Part shown: positions 13,459-20,050 of the stretch, piece by piece
Position numbering within the stretch: position 1 is the stretch's first letter
How the letters are laid out: every line of letters starts with the position of its first letter
Source: Alkaliphilus sp. B6464
GTDB lineage: Bacteria > Bacillota > Clostridia > Peptostreptococcales > Natronincolaceae
Direction: 5' to 3'
Length of the DNA: 64,000 bases
Assembly: GCF_018141165.1 (NCBI RefSeq)
Contig: NZ_CP058557.1
Span: 2,046,001-2,110,000 of the forward strand
Notes under the pieces: generated by a model
What the model was told of the DNA's origin: nothing
The model's database searches: none
The model's input: only the letters and a program-made list of their open reading frames with translations
Position numbers and translations under genes: made by a program

Positions 13459-13641
13459 GCCGTAGATTTAGGTGTTAGATTTAAAATCTCTTATAAGGAC
13501 AATAGGCAATATTATTATTTTAATAAAGAAAAGATATAACACGTATCCTCTGTCACATATATAAAATGCAATCATAAGATAATAAATATAGTTGAGTAGT
13601 CGGAAATATATTTTGTATACTTTTGATTGAGAGGTGATGGG

Positions 13642-14589
13642 ATGAAGTGTTTATCCAATGACACTTTAATCATTTCTAACTTCTCCGATGATTCTATTTC
13701 CGTTATAGATTTAGTCGGAGGAAGAGAAATCCAAAGAATTAAATTATGCTATAATGGACAACGCTCTTCATCTTCACAATTCGGGCCTCACCATATTGCT
13801 CTGGATGAAAGAAGTAAACTTTTGTATGTCCCTAATAGCTGGCACAGTAGTGTTTCTGTAGTAGATTTAATTAGTGAGAAGATAATTGATACTATCTTTG
13901 TAGGAAGTTGCCCAAGTCAAGTTATCCTATGCCCCAAATACAATCATATATACGTGGCAAATACGGATTCTAATAGTCTGTCGATTTTAAGTATGGATAA
14001 TCTGAAATTAATTATACAGCTTCCTACAGGAGAAATGCCTCACGGTATGGCTATGACAAATGATCAGGAGCGCATTTTTATAGGTAATTATGGTTCTGGC
14101 GAGATAACTGAGATTGAAACTAGAACAAACGAGAGACTTAAAAACCATAAGGTGAAATGTAACCCATGGCATTTAAGAATTGATGCTAGTGGTGAGTTTT
14201 TATTTGCAGTTAATTATAGTGATCAATTTAGTCGAAAAGGAAAGGTAGTTATTTACGAAACAAAAACATTAAAAGAAATAAAAACAATAACTATTGGCAA
14301 AATGCCAGTTGAAGCAACTAGTGATAAAACAAATGAATACTTATATATTACAGATTCTGATATGAGCTGCGTTCATATATATGATATACAAAATAATAAA
14401 TATTCTGGAGAGATTAAAGTTAACTCTATGCCCCATGGTATAGAGTTAGATAGCGAAAAAGGAAGACTCTTTGTTACTAGTATACAGAAAAATACGGTTG
14501 ATATAGTTGATACACATACAAGAAAAGTGATACAAAGTATATCAGTAGGTAAAGAGCCTACTAGCATAATTAAAAAATCCTTTAATTAA
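13642..14589 (+). CDS. YncE/YVTN-type beta-propeller protein
   Basis: About 315 residues from ATG 13642 (GAGGTGATG lies just upstream; the in-frame TTG at 13627 would overlap it). The chain is a series of about 40-residue propeller repeats with recurring patterns such as LYVPNSWHSSVSVVDL, IYVANTDSNSLSIL, IFIGNYGSGEITEIET and LFVTSIQKNTVDIVDT, enough for a seven-bladed disc. No signal peptide is seen, so it may be cytosolic or carried with spore layers (inference only). It is transcribed alone; ligand and partner unknown. Confidence 0.8.
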   Translation: MKCLSNDTLIISNFSDDSISVIDLVGGREIQRIKLCYNGQRSSSSQFGPHHIALDERSKLLYVPNSWHSSVSVVDLISEKIIDTIFVGSCPSQVILCPKYNHIYVANTDSNSLSILSMDNLKLIIQLPTGEMPHGMAMTNDQERIFIGNYGSGEITEIETRTNERLKNHKVKCNPWHLRIDASGEFLFAVNYSDQFSRKGKVVIYETKTLKEIKTITIGKMPVEATSDKTNEYLYITDSDMSCVHIYDIQNNKYSGEIKVNSMPHGIELDSEKGRLFVTSIQKNTVDIVDTHTRKVIQSISVGKEPTSIIKKSFN

Positions 14590-15209: not shown

Positions 15210-15965
15210 AAATACACCTCTTTCTAAAAACGTTTAACCTTTATATAATATATTAATCTATTTATAGCTATTTTTAAAGTATAATTGTTGAAATGAATTA
15301 TAATATATGACTTTTAATCTAAAAAACAAGATGATATTTAAAGAGGCACTGAAAAAGCATAGTTTTTCCGGTACCTTCTTTAAATAGACTATTTTTTAAT
15401 ATATTGGATCTACTATAGGTGATAAAGGTGTAAATGGCATTGTAAAAGAAGACAAACTAGGCTTCTACAATATATATTTAAGCTAAGCGTTGAGATATTG
15501 ATAGAAGAGTTAGAATATCCGAATTAGAAAAAGTTCTATACAAAACTAATAATTTTAATGAAATTGTTGTATGTGTCGGAATATGTTCTATAATGCCATA
15601 TGGTTATCATTGAATAATATGAAAACATATAGTAGTATGTTATTGAGTACAAGTCATGGTAAAATATGTAATAAAATATTAAATTTGGTATATAAACTTG
15701 TATTCTTATAAATGATTATTATAACTTGTAGTTCTTCCTTATACATGCTTTGATGTTTAAAATAATGTGATTAACATTAATGGTATATTTCACCACATAC
15801 TTTTTTGGTTTTATAAAATCATATTTTAATATTTATCAAAGAATAACTTGCTAATACTCTAAATTATGATTTTATAATAAATATGAATATATACATGTAT
15901 ATATATAAATCAAACTAAATGGTGCATCATTTAGTAAAAAAATCAAATTTATGGAGGGTATAATA
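15210..15965. other. Gene-free, AT-rich stretch with decayed sequence
   Basis: No intact gene. A 48-base imperfect palindrome sits at 15337-15384 (TTTAAAGAGG... against CCTTCTTTAAA). Two short open frames lacking starts follow: one ends GIVKEDKLGFYNIYLS near 15486, another contains RISELEKVLYKTNNFNEIVV near 15510-15610. Both look like gene remnants. The last 150 bases probably hold the promoter of the secreted-protein gene. Confidence 0.5.
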
Positions 15966-16346
15966 ATGAAAAAAAGTAAATTGCTTATTAATTTAGCTTT
16001 ATGTCTTGTCGTTTTGATTTGTTTTTCAGTTAGCGTGAATGCTGAAACTGCTTCTGTTGTTCTAGATGCAAGTGAATCGTCTGATTCTACAGATATTATT
16101 GGCCTTAGTGATTATGTAAATTATGAGGCAGCTAATTCGCCTAACTCACTGTTTAGTGTTTATGCTACTGTACATCGTTCTTTTCCCGGAAAAGGGTGGA
16201 GTAAAGAAAGAGAATCGCTTATGGCTAAAGGTACCGGCTCTAAAGGCAAAGTTACCGCTACTCAAGATGCAAATTGGCAATTAGAATTAAATCCTAAAGG
16301 ATGGGGCTTTATAGGGTGTGAAGCTGTAGGTTCAATTTGGTATTAA
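15966..16346 (+). CDS. Secreted small protein, bacteriocin-like candidate
   Basis: 126 residues from ATG 15966, eight bases after GGAGG. A textbook signal peptide (KKSKLLINLALCLVVLICFSVSVNAE) gives a mature protein of about 100 residues. An acidic/serine-rich linker is followed by a C-terminal 60-residue part rich in Gly, Trp and Lys (FPGKGWSKERESL..GTGSKGKVTATQDANWQLEL..GWGFIGCEAVGSIWY). The layout, with an ABC transporter operon directly downstream, resembles lactococcin-972-type secreted bacteriocins, but the sequence is not a clear family member. It could instead be a substrate or sensor for that transporter. Confidence 0.7.
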   Translation: MKKSKLLINLALCLVVLICFSVSVNAETASVVLDASESSDSTDIIGLSDYVNYEAANSPNSLFSVYATVHRSFPGKGWSKERESLMAKGTGSKGKVTATQDANWQLELNPKGWGFIGCEAVGSIWY

Positions 16347-16380
16347 ACAGATGTTTATTAACTATTTCTAGCATATAATC

Positions 16381-16416
16381 ATTAGATGGAGAAGAAATTC
16401 TCCATCTAATAATTTT
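16381..16416 (+). terminator. Hairpin between secreted-protein gene and ABC operon
   Basis: A perfect 13-bp stem (ATTAGATGGAGAA and its complement, 4-base loop) with a short T-rich tail. It may give partial termination, so the secreted protein is made in excess over the transporter. Confidence 0.75.
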
Positions 16417-16446
16417 ATAAAATTTGCAATTTAAAGGGGAATTTAA

Positions 16447-18390
16447 ATGATTACTTTAATAAGAAATAATTTTAAGTTATTTTTTAAAAGTATATATTTA
16501 GCATTAGGATTCTTTATATTTTCTATTGTAGTAAATGTGTATTTAATTGAAGGTATTTATAAATTGTCAATACATAAAGATGCACTATATTATCTAATTC
16601 ATAGTCAAAAAATTAGTATAATTTATTTTGTTTTCTTTGTATTTATATCCTATGAATACTTAGTAAAAAGTAAAAATGAAAGCATATTAGAATGTTTTTC
16701 AGTGATAAACAATGGAAAATTTGAATTGTATTTTTCTAAATTAGCAGTATTGGTGATTACAATATTAATAATGACTTTAAATATAATGATATATAATTAT
16801 ATTGTATATTTTGTTATGAATGTAAATTCATTACCTTATGCGTATCATATATTCTTAAATAATTTTTTAAATGTTTTTTTAGTATCATTTTTAGGTGTTT
16901 GTATAGGGACTGTAACTTCATTATATTTAAAAAGATTTCCGGCATATCTTATAATGATATTCTCAACAGTTTTAATAAGTCCTATTTGTGAATTCGTACC
17001 TTATGTACTCTTTATGGGTTTTGAAGTAAATATATATCCACTTAGAGAAATATTTGATATTTTACCTCCAAATTTAGATTGGGTTGAAGAAGAACTATAT
17101 GGATTGTCAATAGAGCCTTATAGATGGAACTTGTTAATATTTTGGATATGTTTTTTGAGTTCCTTTGTATTGTTAAAATTAAGCACTAAAAAATATAAAT
17201 TATTAAATTTTGTAGCCATAATATTACTATCTTTTTCACTTATCAATTTGTATTCATATACTAAACCAGGTAGCATCGTAAAGAAAGATTATAACCCTAA
17301 CAGTTTTGTGGCCTTTGATGAATTGTATTATATAAAGGATGTTCAAAAAGAAGAAAATGTAGAATTTAATATTTTAGCATATGATATGGATCTTACTATA
17401 GGCAGGCAATTACATAGTGATATAAAAATCTCCTTAGATGAAAAAGAATATTTAAATAGCTATAAATTTACCCTATATAGAAATTATAATGTTGAAAAAA
17501 TACTTAGTAAAAAAAATGAAATATTAGAATTCAGAAGAGAAGGGGATTATCTAGAAGTATTCAACCCTACTAATGAAAAACTAGAAGAAATAAGAATTTT
17601 ATATAGTGGATATAGTCCAGTATTTTATAGCAATTCTCAGGGAGTTTTACTTCCAGGCTGTTTTCCGTACTATCCAATAGAAGGATATAAAAAAATATAT
17701 TTGAAGGAACAATCTGTATATATTCCAATAATAAGAGATGATAGTATTAAATTTAATGTATCCATAAAATCTAACTTAGATATTTACTCAAATTTACAAA
17801 AAGAGAATAATAATTTCTTTGGTGAAGCACAAGCGGTTACCTTAATTGGAGGTTTTGTAGAAGAAAAGAATATTGGAAATAATATTTTTTATGGCTTAAC
17901 TTTAGAAAAATTAAATACAAATGCTTTATTAGATATTAACAATATATTGCAACCATACAAAAACATGTTTCTAGAAAATGAGGAACTTAATATTACTGGC
18001 AAAAAAATTTTTCAATCTCCAGCTACATTTACTAGTCGTGTAATGGATAATGGTTTAGTAAGTTTTAAAGACCATATTTTTGTATATAGTTTAAATAAAG
18101 AAAATTTAATACATGATTTCTTGCAATCTACTATACCACAAGATATTAAAAAAATAGAAATTAAAACTATATTCTTTGATTATCTTTTATATAAGAATAG
18201 AATTCTTAATATCCCTAAAGAAAAATTAGAAAATAACAAATCTTATAAATTGCATAATTTATTTTTGAAAAAAATAAATGAATTAGGAGAAGATTATGTT
18301 CTTAAAAATACTTATGATTTTTTAAGAAATAAAAATGATACAAGAGATTCAACTACATTTATTAGAGATTTAACAAAAGGAGGTAGTTAA
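16447..18390 (+). CDS. ABC-2 type permease with M1-peptidase-like extracytoplasmic domain
   Basis: 647 residues. Residues 1 to about 265 hold six or more hydrophobic helices in ABC-2 permease style. Residues about 270-647 form a large soluble domain. Its order of features (N-terminal strands, SGYSPVFYSNSQGVLLPGCFPYYP, then a helical end KINELGEDYVLKNTYDFLRNK) resembles clostridial permeases fused to M1 aminopeptidase domains. No HEXXH zinc motif exists anywhere in it, so the domain is probably non-catalytic. GGGGA precedes the start. The ATPase gene begins one base after the stop. The M1 resemblance is judged by eye. Confidence 0.65.
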   Translation: MITLIRNNFKLFFKSIYLALGFFIFSIVVNVYLIEGIYKLSIHKDALYYLIHSQKISIIYFVFFVFISYEYLVKSKNESILECFSVINNGKFELYFSKLAVLVITILIMTLNIMIYNYIVYFVMNVNSLPYAYHIFLNNFLNVFLVSFLGVCIGTVTSLYLKRFPAYLIMIFSTVLISPICEFVPYVLFMGFEVNIYPLREIFDILPPNLDWVEEELYGLSIEPYRWNLLIFWICFLSSFVLLKLSTKKYKLLNFVAIILLSFSLINLYSYTKPGSIVKKDYNPNSFVAFDELYYIKDVQKEENVEFNILAYDMDLTIGRQLHSDIKISLDEKEYLNSYKFTLYRNYNVEKILSKKNEILEFRREGDYLEVFNPTNEKLEEIRILYSGYSPVFYSNSQGVLLPGCFPYYPIEGYKKIYLKEQSVYIPIIRDDSIKFNVSIKSNLDIYSNLQKENNNFFGEAQAVTLIGGFVEEKNIGNNIFYGLTLEKLNTNALLDINNILQPYKNMFLENEELNITGKKIFQSPATFTSRVMDNGLVSFKDHIFVYSLNKENLIHDFLQSTIPQDIKKIEIKTIFFDYLLYKNRILNIPKEKLENNKSYKLHNLFLKKINELGEDYVLKNTYDFLRNKNDTRDSTTFIRDLTKGGS

Positions 18391-18391
18391 A

Positions 18392-19231
18392 GTGTTAGAG
18401 ATTTTAGATTTAAATAAATCATTTAAAAAAAAAGAAGTATTGAAAGGGATCTCTATAAGTTTAAAAACTGGGGTATATGGACTTTTAGGTCCAAATGGAG
18501 CAGGCAAAACAACGTTAATTAGGTGTATAGTTAACTTATATGATATCACTAAAGGAAATATAAGATTTCAAGGAATAGACGTTACTAATAATAATGCATT
18601 TTCAAAAAACATAGGATATCTTCCTCAAAAATTTGGATTATTTAAAGAATTAACTGCATATGATAATCTTCAATACTTTGCTGCTCTAAAAAAAATACCT
18701 AAGGAGTCTATGGATGCTTGTATTAAAGAGAGTTTGGAAAAAGTTAATTTACAAGATAGAATTAATAATAAAGTATCAACTTTATCTGGTGGGATGGTTA
18801 GAAGACTAGGTATTGCTCAAGCAATATTAGGAGATCCTCAAATAATAATTTTTGATGAACCAACTGCTGGACTTGACCCAGAAGAAAGAATAAGATTTAA
18901 AAATCTTTTGTCCTCTATAAAAGAGGACAAGATAATTATAATTTCTACCCATATTGTAGAAGATGTTGAAACATGTTGCAATAAAATGATAATCATGAAT
19001 GATGGAAAAATATTTAAAATGGGAAATAGCGAAGAAATTATATCTATAGCAAGAGGAAAAGTTTTTGAAGTAAAACAAGGAATAGGAATCGATTCTAATT
19101 GGTATGTTGAAAAAACTTTTTTTAGAAATGGAGAAGAGTTTTTAAGGATACTTTCAAACAAAAAACAAGGACACAAAAGTTTAGAACCTACTATCGAAGA
19201 TGGATATATGTGCATATTGAAAGGAATATAA
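18392..19231 (+). CDS. ABC transporter ATP-binding protein
   Basis: 279 residues, GTG start after AAGGAGGTAG. Walker A GPNGAGKTT, Q-loop LPQKFGLF, signature LSGGMVRRLGIAQAI, Walker B IIIFDEPTAGLD and H-loop STHIVED are all intact, so it should hydrolyse ATP. It is the only ATPase of a four-gene cluster with the M1-like permease, a second membrane protein and the secreted small protein upstream. The unit may export that protein or protect against it; direction is unknown. Confidence 0.93.
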   Translation: MLEILDLNKSFKKKEVLKGISISLKTGVYGLLGPNGAGKTTLIRCIVNLYDITKGNIRFQGIDVTNNNAFSKNIGYLPQKFGLFKELTAYDNLQYFAALKKIPKESMDACIKESLEKVNLQDRINNKVSTLSGGMVRRLGIAQAILGDPQIIIFDEPTAGLDPEERIRFKNLLSSIKEDKIIIISTHIVEDVETCCNKMIIMNDGKIFKMGNSEEIISIARGKVFEVKQGIGIDSNWYVEKTFFRNGEEFLRILSNKKQGHKSLEPTIEDGYMCILKGI

Positions 19232-19235
19232 TATC

Positions 19236-19880
19236 ATGAACATAAAACCGATATATTTTTCTTTCAAAAACTTAAAGATATATTATTTTATTCCTTTATT
19301 TATTTTATATGTTTTTCTACCTATTGTAAGTGTTGGAATAGTTTATATGTCAGGTAGTATAGAGAATTCTTATTTTCTGATATTTAGAGAAGTGGAAAAG
19401 TATATACCTATTTTATCTTTGTGGTGGATTACTTTTATATTTAAAGAATATATTGAAGGAGATGGAAATGAAATCTTATATTGTATTGACGAGTCCGGCA
19501 AAGTTAAGGTTTTTCAAATACTTTTAATATTCATCTGGTATATTATACATATTAGTATACTTTTTTTAGGGTACAGTATATTTTTGGATAATGTATTTTT
19601 AGAGTTCTTGAAAACAGTTATTCAATGTTTCTTTTTTACCTCGTTATTATATATGCTAATCTATACTTTAAAGTCAACTACTATTAGTTTTATGGTTTTA
19701 CTTATATATGAATTGTTTGCAATTTTTATAAATTCTGAGATCGCTAATTATATAAGTATATTTGAGAATGGTGAAAAAATAATTTTAAGAACTATTACCA
19801 CAAAGTATTCGTTGGTCTTATTAGTGTCACTTGTTTTCTTAATGATTGGTGTGTATAAAAACAAGAAATTCTATTATTAA
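19236..19880 (+). CDS. ABC transporter membrane subunit, small
   Basis: 214 residues starting four bases after the ATPase stop. About six hydrophobic helices alternate with short charged loops, as in ABC-2 type membrane components (residue 48 on: EVEKYIPILSLWWITFIFKEYIEGDGNEILYC is near-identical in style to the first permease loop KNESILECF). It probably forms the channel as a heterodimer with the larger permease. It is followed by a strong terminator. Confidence 0.7.
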   Translation: MNIKPIYFSFKNLKIYYFIPLFILYVFLPIVSVGIVYMSGSIENSYFLIFREVEKYIPILSLWWITFIFKEYIEGDGNEILYCIDESGKVKVFQILLIFIWYIIHISILFLGYSIFLDNVFLEFLKTVIQCFFFTSLLYMLIYTLKSTTISFMVLLIYELFAIFINSEIANYISIFENGEKIILRTITTKYSLVLLVSLVFLMIGVYKNKKFYY

Positions 19881-19984
19881 AATATGATTTCTATATATTG
19901 TTACTGTTCTTAGGAATAACAAATCATTTGTCTTATACACTGCTGAAAAGTATTAGACGGCATATATATAATTTGCAAACTAAA

Positions 19985-20017
19985 AAATGAGATGCTCACT
20001 AGAGCATCTCATTTTTT
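19985..20017. terminator. Bidirectional terminator
   Basis: Perfect 13-bp stem AAATGAGATGCTC/GAGCATCTCATTT with T6 after it; ends the ABC operon and the convergent SASP gene. Confidence 0.92.
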
Positions 20018-20050
20018 ATGATAAATATTTTATATTAAACTATAATTTTA

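Follow-up and report, generated by a model that had tools for sequence, protein, structure and literature searches.

Why would a gene for a small secreted protein stand in front of the genes of an ATP-binding cassette (ABC) transporter whose permease carries an outer domain resembling an aminopeptidase? This question is raised by a locus in Alkaliphilus sp. B6464 (assembly GCF_018141165.1), lying in a stretch of 64,000 nucleotides (nt) of contig NZ_CP058557.1 (positions 2,046,001-2,110,000, forward strand), hereafter referred to as the window. An earlier note on the window had placed at 15966-19880 a gene for a 126-residue protein with a signal peptide, followed by a three-gene ABC-2 cluster. 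Four open reading frames (ORFs), encoding this protein, a permease, an ATPase and a 214-residue membrane protein, were confirmed there. Our preferred answer, held with modest confidence, is that the four genes constitute a bacteriocin-like toxin-immunity cassette, with the following features (lengths in amino acids, aa):

15966..16346, forward strand: gene for the secreted protein, 126 aa, with a putative signal peptide at about residues 1-26 and a mature part of about 100 aa predicted to be all-beta (8 strands).
16044..16343, forward strand: part encoding the mature peptide, as modelled (residues 27-126; AlphaFold2, 2 sequences, mean predicted local distance difference test (pLDDT) 79.2, predicted template modelling score 0.72).
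16381..16410, forward strand: 13-bp hairpin in the gap between the peptide and permease genes, resembling a weak terminator or attenuator and present in the relative G001 too.
16447..18390, forward strand: permease gene, 647 aa, with a membrane half at about residues 1-266 and an outer domain at about residues 267-647.
17245..18387, forward strand: part encoding the M1-aminopeptidase-like outer domain of the permease, without HEXXH.
18392..19231, forward strand: ABC ATPase gene, 279 aa, GTG start, with a match to ABC_tran (E 8.1e-33).
19236..19880, forward strand: gene for a small second membrane protein, 214 aa, with no family match.
15210..20050, no strand assigned: stretch holding the cassette, from the DUF4364 gene to the small acid-soluble spore protein gene; these genes adjoin without the cassette in relatives.

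In the mechanism that we propose, the 126-aa protein would be exported through the Sec pathway by its signal peptide and would fold outside the cell as a beta-sandwich of about 100 aa, which may harm related cells at the envelope. The three 3' genes would form a single ABC exporter, composed of two different membrane proteins and the ATPase, and the outer domain of the permease would derive from an M1 aminopeptidase that lost its zinc site. This pump may shield the producer by clearing the toxin from the membrane, and the hairpin would yield more peptide than pump message. We counted the following in favour of the toxin-immunity reading: the co-occurrence of the genes, the leave-one-out and forward tests, the pattern of gene decay, mobility, the hairpins, tandem copies, and the precedents of scbABC and lcn972.

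The start of the peptide gene at 15966 was preferred because the first start given by the ORF finder (15951) overlaps a GGAGGG ribosome-binding site (15953-15958), just 5' of position 15966; the resulting N-terminus, MKKSKLLINLALCLVVLICFSVSVNA, is signal-like when read by eye, with no signal predictor. The ABC_tran domain of the ATPase identifies an ABC transporter, and the ABC-2 label is based on architecture and on its relatives: no Pfam family was matched by the window permease at E <= 1, and the ABC2_membrane model was matched by one of its 19 relatives (E 1.1e-4). The peptide, the permease and the small membrane protein had no Pfam or NCBIfam family above the cut-off and no PHROGs or PADLOC match, and the matches of the ATPase in the latter two libraries were generic. 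To judge from these searches, the secreted protein and the main pump part appear to be members of no named family in the libraries used. A phage or defence gene was rejected on the lack of a PHROGs or PADLOC match, generic ATPase matches apart, and on the absence of the window permease from 50,697 phage records, a search that covered neither the peptide nor viral contigs. An RNA element was also rejected, as there was no Rfam match. Scanning for promoters gave no information, with 41 found against 41.5 expected.

The pairing of the peptide with the transporter was assessed over 58 transporter loci; the tally omits L019 and L020 (Priestia plasmids close to that of L013), the Planococcus copy L021, with a split permease and an unannotated ATPase, and, as further loci, L162-L169. 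In 28 loci the peptide is full-length and begins like a signal peptide, in eight (L002, L034, L035, L053, L144, L145, L146 and L156) a damaged remnant is left, and in 22 no peptide was recognised; damage is less certain in L053, which is cut by a contig end, and in L034, where only an in-frame start codon is lacking. The small membrane protein was found by profile in 55 of the 58 loci (not in L032, L060 and L161). The Sec-like hydrophobic segment at the start of the 28 full-length peptides was read by eye from starts chosen by a script. In 26 cases, the peptide gene lies upstream on the same strand; in L008 it is located between the permease and ATPase genes, and L015 has two tandem copies pointing away. 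The L159 peptide, weak by profile (E 0.74, 0.055 or too weak to be listed in three scans), was counted as full-length because it plainly resembles that of L160.

In a leave-one-out analysis with residues 1-24 removed, the held-out peptide was the best match of its own locus in 17 of 17 loci (E 1e-24 to 1.2 among 1625 segments; 7.9e-9 for the window peptide), with close relatives retained in the training set for the groups L034/L035/L037 and L054/L055/L058. The matches were weak for Geobacillus (E 1.2) and Halobacillus (E 0.041). Since held-out matches persist without these residues, the homology of the peptides is independent of the signal peptide. In a forward test, the mature parts of the first 18 peptides were combined into a profile, which found a peptide directly upstream, on the same strand and at E < 0.05, in 16 of 25 loci newly fetched from 23 genomes in the class of G708; 12 of these were full-length and four truncated (L144, L145, L146 and L156). 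No peptide was found at this threshold in seven more distant transporter loci (L162 and L164-L169); L163 belongs to a cassette array in G1127.

A search for the peptide alone yielded no peptide without a transporter in 398 genomes of the phylum, a negative result limited to the sensitivity of the model, because the four loci mentioned below were those on which it had been trained. The full profile matched 25 of these genomes at E <= 0.01 (no more than 10 candidates per genome being scored); once the signal part was removed from the model, strong matches were confined to four fetched non-window loci, all with the transporter (26 loci scanned), and the next-best match (E 0.0079) lay inside a 565-aa frame. 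On plasmids carrying the transporter but no adjacent peptide, none was detected elsewhere at E <= 0.1 (W01 and W03-W06); weak matches only (E 0.0175-0.088) came from W02 and from the L010 and L011 genomes. The earlier note would have abandoned its proposal if the peptide never co-occurred with the permease in other genomes; the two are paired in many, and its description of the transporter as dedicated stands.

Tandem peptide copies occur in Priestia filamentosa and L151, and cassette arrays in G985 and G1127. At L145, L146 and L163, cassettes stand in tandem arrays in which the peptides are damaged and one more, divergent permease is present, a picture suggestive of duplicates that are diversifying. 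A second match to the peptide profile (E 1.1e-4) is located downstream of the transporter in L141 (8186-8560), where the frame shows no obvious signal peptide. A different signal-bearing protein, DUF6147-like, lies near the transporter in L054 (6749-7219, above the cut-off) and L011 (2880-3389, below it), and might replace the absent peptide in L011.

Wherever the peptide is whole (28 of 28 loci) or damaged (eight of eight), all three transporter genes are open. In G001, the closest relative, the permease of which is 95% identical to that of the window, the peptide gene is gone save for about its last 16 codons and the hairpin is kept. The ratio of non-synonymous to synonymous substitution rates between the G001 and window transporters is 0.17-0.22, against 0.06 for the neighbouring DUF4364 gene, and part of this divergence may predate the loss of the peptide. 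The decay trend, in which the peptide goes first and the pump is kept, is what an immunity gene predicts, although the counts alone are not significant. The recurrent pairing would also be expected if the peptide were a soluble outer subunit, a lid or an inhibitor of the M1-like domain, belonging to a pump of general use against envelope stress or drugs, and sigma or anti-sigma genes (some annotated, some read from the sequence) are found near several related loci. However, such a subunit should not be absent or broken in 30 of the 58 loci while about 26 of these 30 keep open transporter genes, and the divergence of the ectodomain does not track the peptide beyond what the membrane half accounts for. 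We consider this explanation quite improbable.

The window cassette is an insertion between the DUF4364 and spore-protein genes. These two genes directly adjoin, without a cassette, in G002, of the same genus, and in G004, G010 and G016 (four of the seven genomes searched), and the transporter lies between them in G001; the pairing of the two genes was not found within the stretches fetched from G003 and G006. The G+C content falls to 0.25-0.26 in the 2-kb blocks at 16-20 kb, versus 0.31-0.34 at 10-14 and 20-24 kb. G010 and G016 hold relatives at other sites in their genomes, and in L010 the relatives lie between what we take to be RNase R-like and SmpB-like genes. In the window, a YncE-like beta-propeller gene (13627-14589) adjoins the DUF4364 gene, and a similar gene of about 312-320 aa occupies this position in G001, G002, G004, G010 and G016.

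Counting the window's own genome where it was sampled, relatives of the transporter turned up in four of 148 closely related genomes, in eight of 391 from the class and in 12 of 398 from the phylum. The class of G708, probably Bacilli, gave 32 of 398 genomes, and plasmids gave 12 of 72,556 records, from Priestia, Planococcus, Geobacillus, Halobacillus and Parageobacillus. The named genome loci belong to unclassified Clostridiaceae and one uncultured Alkaliphilus, and a pattern scan of genome contigs yielded three loci only. Genes for an S8 peptidase and a YvrJ-family protein recur near plasmid cassettes of Priestia and Halobacillus (L008:409-2492, L014:7950-8968 and L016:375-2293), with a sigma-70 gene also nearby in L008 and L016. 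Four plasmid cassettes from Priestia, Halobacillus and Parageobacillus (L008:7539-8297, L014:2230-2976, L016:6714-7454 and L017:6245-7024) adjoin a gene for a protein of about 250 aa, with a long N-terminal part and a cysteine-rich end resembling phospholipase A2 (Pfam PLA2, E 0.001-0.004, below the cut-off); it is possibly a second toxin.

The predicted fold of the peptide raises another explanation, in which the secreted protein would have a structural or adhesive role in the envelope, of the appendage or surface-layer type, and the transporter would assemble it or export an associated product. The model of the mature peptide is all-beta with eight strands, the five models spanning pLDDT 79 down to 42. 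Foldseek returned no row at E <= 0.001, and the top row was Ena2A (E 1.3e-3), a subunit of Bacillus endospore appendages; with VIA-align, Ena rows reached Z 7.6-7.8, among many others, and the host of the window has spore-protein genes and presumably forms spores. However, models that lack a clear match commonly reach Z values of 7-8. Higher values were obtained for the last domain of the Thermococcus protease Tk-SP (9.8), XepA (9.3), PirA and a GOLD domain (9.0) and YomS (8.9), and many unrelated proteins score like XepA and YomS against this model of pLDDT 79.2. Sequence searches of the PDB with the permease and peptide profiles returned nothing meaningful, and the solved structure of lactococcin 972 was absent among the fold matches listed, which excludes nothing. 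The model thus supports a beta-sandwich, and the fold matches would point to no function. Furthermore, early loss with retention of the pump, as in the eight damaged loci, is not obviously expected of a structural protein, nor are carriage on plasmids and a distribution as patchy as the genome counts given above. An envelope role is therefore unlikely, and we retain the toxin-immunity interpretation.

The gap between the peptide and transporter genes also bears on this interpretation. The window hairpin has a 13-bp stem, a 4-nt loop and a weak T tail, and the gap folds at z -4.1 relative to 200 shuffles. Stems of 10-22 bp, including that of the window, were found in 10 of 24 such gaps (four of the 28 loci, L008, L015, L138 and L141, lack a suitable gap), versus 0.12 expected from dinucleotide shuffles (maximum 2 in 200) and 0.54 when places within these loci were drawn at random (maximum 3 in 300). 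The hairpins mostly differ in sequence, with a shared core in L054, L055 and L058. The hairpin described in the earlier note is thus real and recurrent, and attenuation between toxin and immunity genes would be its natural reading. The grouping of the genes exceeds chance, because distant genomes contain the same set side by side, a profile of the other peptides recognises that of the window, and long hairpins recur.

We compared the divergence of the cassette parts by rank correlation of distances over the 28 whole cassettes. Peptide distances correlated with those of the permease (0.41), the small membrane protein (0.39) and the ATPase (0.30), and the permease correlated with its own ATPase at 0.37. 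The peptide is thus coupled to the permease as tightly as the permease is to the ATPase, and this tight gene coupling would suit a transporter devoted to exporting or maturing the peptide instead of conferring immunity. However, transporters persist in the 22 loci without any recognised peptide. A dedicated exporter is not needed, because the 28 full-length peptides have Sec-like signals, and cutting by the M1-like domain is unlikely because it has no zinc motif. Export or maturation therefore seems a rather unlikely role, and immunity the better candidate. Within the permease, peptide distances correlated with both the membrane half (0.44) and the ectodomain (0.33). The ectodomain retained a partial correlation of 0.07 (p 0.16) given the membrane half, versus 0.32 (p 0.0005) for the membrane half given the ectodomain. 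The suggestion of the earlier note that the external domain might bind the peptide is therefore not supported, as the ectodomain adds nothing beyond the membrane half; the same partial correlation gave no support to the ectodomain as the part conferring specificity. The correlations do support the co-inheritance of peptide and transporter.

The relationship of the outer domain to M1 enzymes was examined by structure and by profile. None of 19 permeases matched the Pfam M1 family. The structure prediction proposed in the earlier note recovered M1 enzymes, from a model of low confidence (four sequences, pLDDT 52.7). This model aligned to M1 enzymes over residues 52-381 with Foldseek; among the 50 matches listed, 43 were M1, two M61 by title and five chitinases or chitin-binding proteins, and all seven rows at E <= 0.001 corresponded to one Deinococcus M1 enzyme. 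VIA-align gave a Z of at most 6.9 against M1 (root-mean-square deviation 15.8). Profile-profile comparison with 20 M1 proteins from relatives gave, for 29 permeases, a local score of 21.6 (decoys up to 21.9) and a global score of 22.2 (7.0 for decoys); for 54 permeases, these scores were 28.1 (26.3 reversed) and 21.1 (decoys up to 7.9). With 62 permeases, eight distant ones having been added, the local score reached 43.6 versus 23.0 reversed and 20.0 shuffled (E 6e-5), and the global score 39.7 versus a decoy maximum of 7.5 (E 2e-7). One distant permease touches Peptidase_M1_N (E 0.034, below the cut-off). HEXXH was absent from all 62 ectodomains, and the sole HELLH (L007) lies at residues 2-6, outside the ectodomain; an active aminopeptidase was rejected on this ground. 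The outer domain is thus zinc-less and M1-like, as the earlier note had proposed, though by distant descent, and an outer domain unrelated to the M1 fold, which would have told against that note, was not what we found.

The permeases of L161, L162 and L164-L169 bridge the cassette permease to M1 enzymes. These loci form a related but distinct set, with an ATPase, a large permease (700-820 aa), a small permease and no recognised secreted peptide, and several then carry genes for an extracytoplasmic function sigma-like factor, an anti-sigma-like factor and a second ATPase, as read from the sequence.

Several observations weigh against a toxin-immunity cassette. Neither charge nor cysteines are conserved among the peptides. 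In pairwise comparison, the window peptide matches only an Alkaliphilus one (E 5.5e-15; 2 of 148 genomes, including its own), and a pairwise search of plasmids gave nothing convincing (best E 0.5). As the loci were collected by permease, loci with the peptide only are under-sampled outside the 148 close-relative and 398 phylum genomes. The large share of transporter loci without a recognised peptide (22 of 58) implies that the transporter may have other uses. The transporter is broken in three of these 22 loci (L010, L036 and L142), and possibly in a fourth, L044, where the small membrane gene is short near a contig end; broken transporters in 0 of 28 loci with a whole peptide versus 3 of 30 others do not differ significantly (one-sided 0.13, calculated by hand). 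In the G1127 array, a full-length peptide precedes a permease that matches in its first half only and has no ATPase of its own; a complete transporter exists within the same array. Finally, pneumococcal strains keeping scbBC are still killed because the genes are not induced (PMC11796350).

More broadly, these cassettes might represent a class of bacteriocins not described before, folded and exported through Sec, that would have spread through Bacillota on plasmids and by insertion into chromosomes. Each would have a three-part ABC immunity pump in which the outer domain, a catalytically dead aminopeptidase, would serve as a toxin-extraction device, and many strains would have kept immunity after loss of the toxin. 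We regard this wider proposal as tentative, its chances falling slightly short of even. A literature search for earlier accounts of an ABC-2 permease bearing an M1 domain and paired with a bacteriocin showed nothing on this cassette among the papers listed. If correct, the proposal would reveal an antagonism system that the family libraries searched do not name, provide a matched set of toxin and immunity variants ready for specificity tests, and show how an exopeptidase fold came to serve as the external portion of a pump. The natural peptide losses and tandem copies would make toxin recognition by ABC immunity pumps testable.

Among known systems, the closest working model by analogy would be the lactococcin 972 type, which includes streptococcin B. 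In both lcn972-orf2-orf3 and scbABC, a gene for a small secreted protein is followed by permease and ABC ATPase genes presumed to act in immunity or transport; there are plasmid-borne forms, and natural strains have lost the toxin gene and kept the 3' genes. The killing of related bacteria, by lipid II binding, is a trait of the lactococcin 972 family. The window shows this order, with a signal peptide read by eye on the small secreted protein. Lactococcin 972 is shorter than about 100 residues, whereas the peptide is predicted to have eight strands over about 100 residues; the cassette also differs in its extra small membrane protein and in the M1-like outer domain of its permease. No peptide in an alignment of 18 (two damaged) matched PF09683 at E <= 1, and this family was not found in the window's genome at E <= 0.1. 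TIGR01653, scanned with the 18 aligned peptides and 10 of 13 new full-length ones, was matched by one of 28 (L052, residues 1-59, E 0.019, 15.3 bits versus a cut-off of 32.1). The lactococcin 972-associated permease family was not among the 18 Pfam and 7 NCBIfam families matched by 19 permeases (E <= 1). Membership was therefore rejected for both peptide and permease, in agreement with the earlier note, which had seen a lactococcin 972-like arrangement fitting no class exactly; we treat the cassette as a variant of this type because the family sequence tests fail and its transporter type is its own. In published work, scbBC occurs without the lactococcin 972-like toxin gene scbA in 150 of 617 pneumococcal genomes (PMC11796350), and the lactococcin 972 cluster, alike in arrangement, contains genes termed putative immunity genes, the role of which is not settled in print (PMC4055356).

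The other comparisons concern single parts of the cassette. M1 zinc aminopeptidases align, through their N-terminal and catalytic domains in order, with the outer domain of the permease, but this domain lacks HEXXH and is joined to the membrane half of a transporter. XepA and YomS, from Bacillus subtilis prophages, may resemble the predicted fold of the peptide, a common one; no sequence relation was found, and no link of these proteins to an ABC transporter is known. XepA undergoes export and shows cytotoxicity in bacterial plate tests, and YomS alone is not toxic (PMC6834076). The transporter itself may be compared with the ABC immunity transporters of the lantibiotic LanFEG type; the ATPase falls below the cut-off for this type, scoring 153 bits versus 309.75 for TIGR03740, and the membrane parts match no family. 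Mr10EFGH is described as a multi-component ABC pump acting as an immunity transporter for enterocins (PMC10598978). The cassette shares with both the presence of an ABC pump of several components beside a gene for a bacteriocin, or in our case a putative one.

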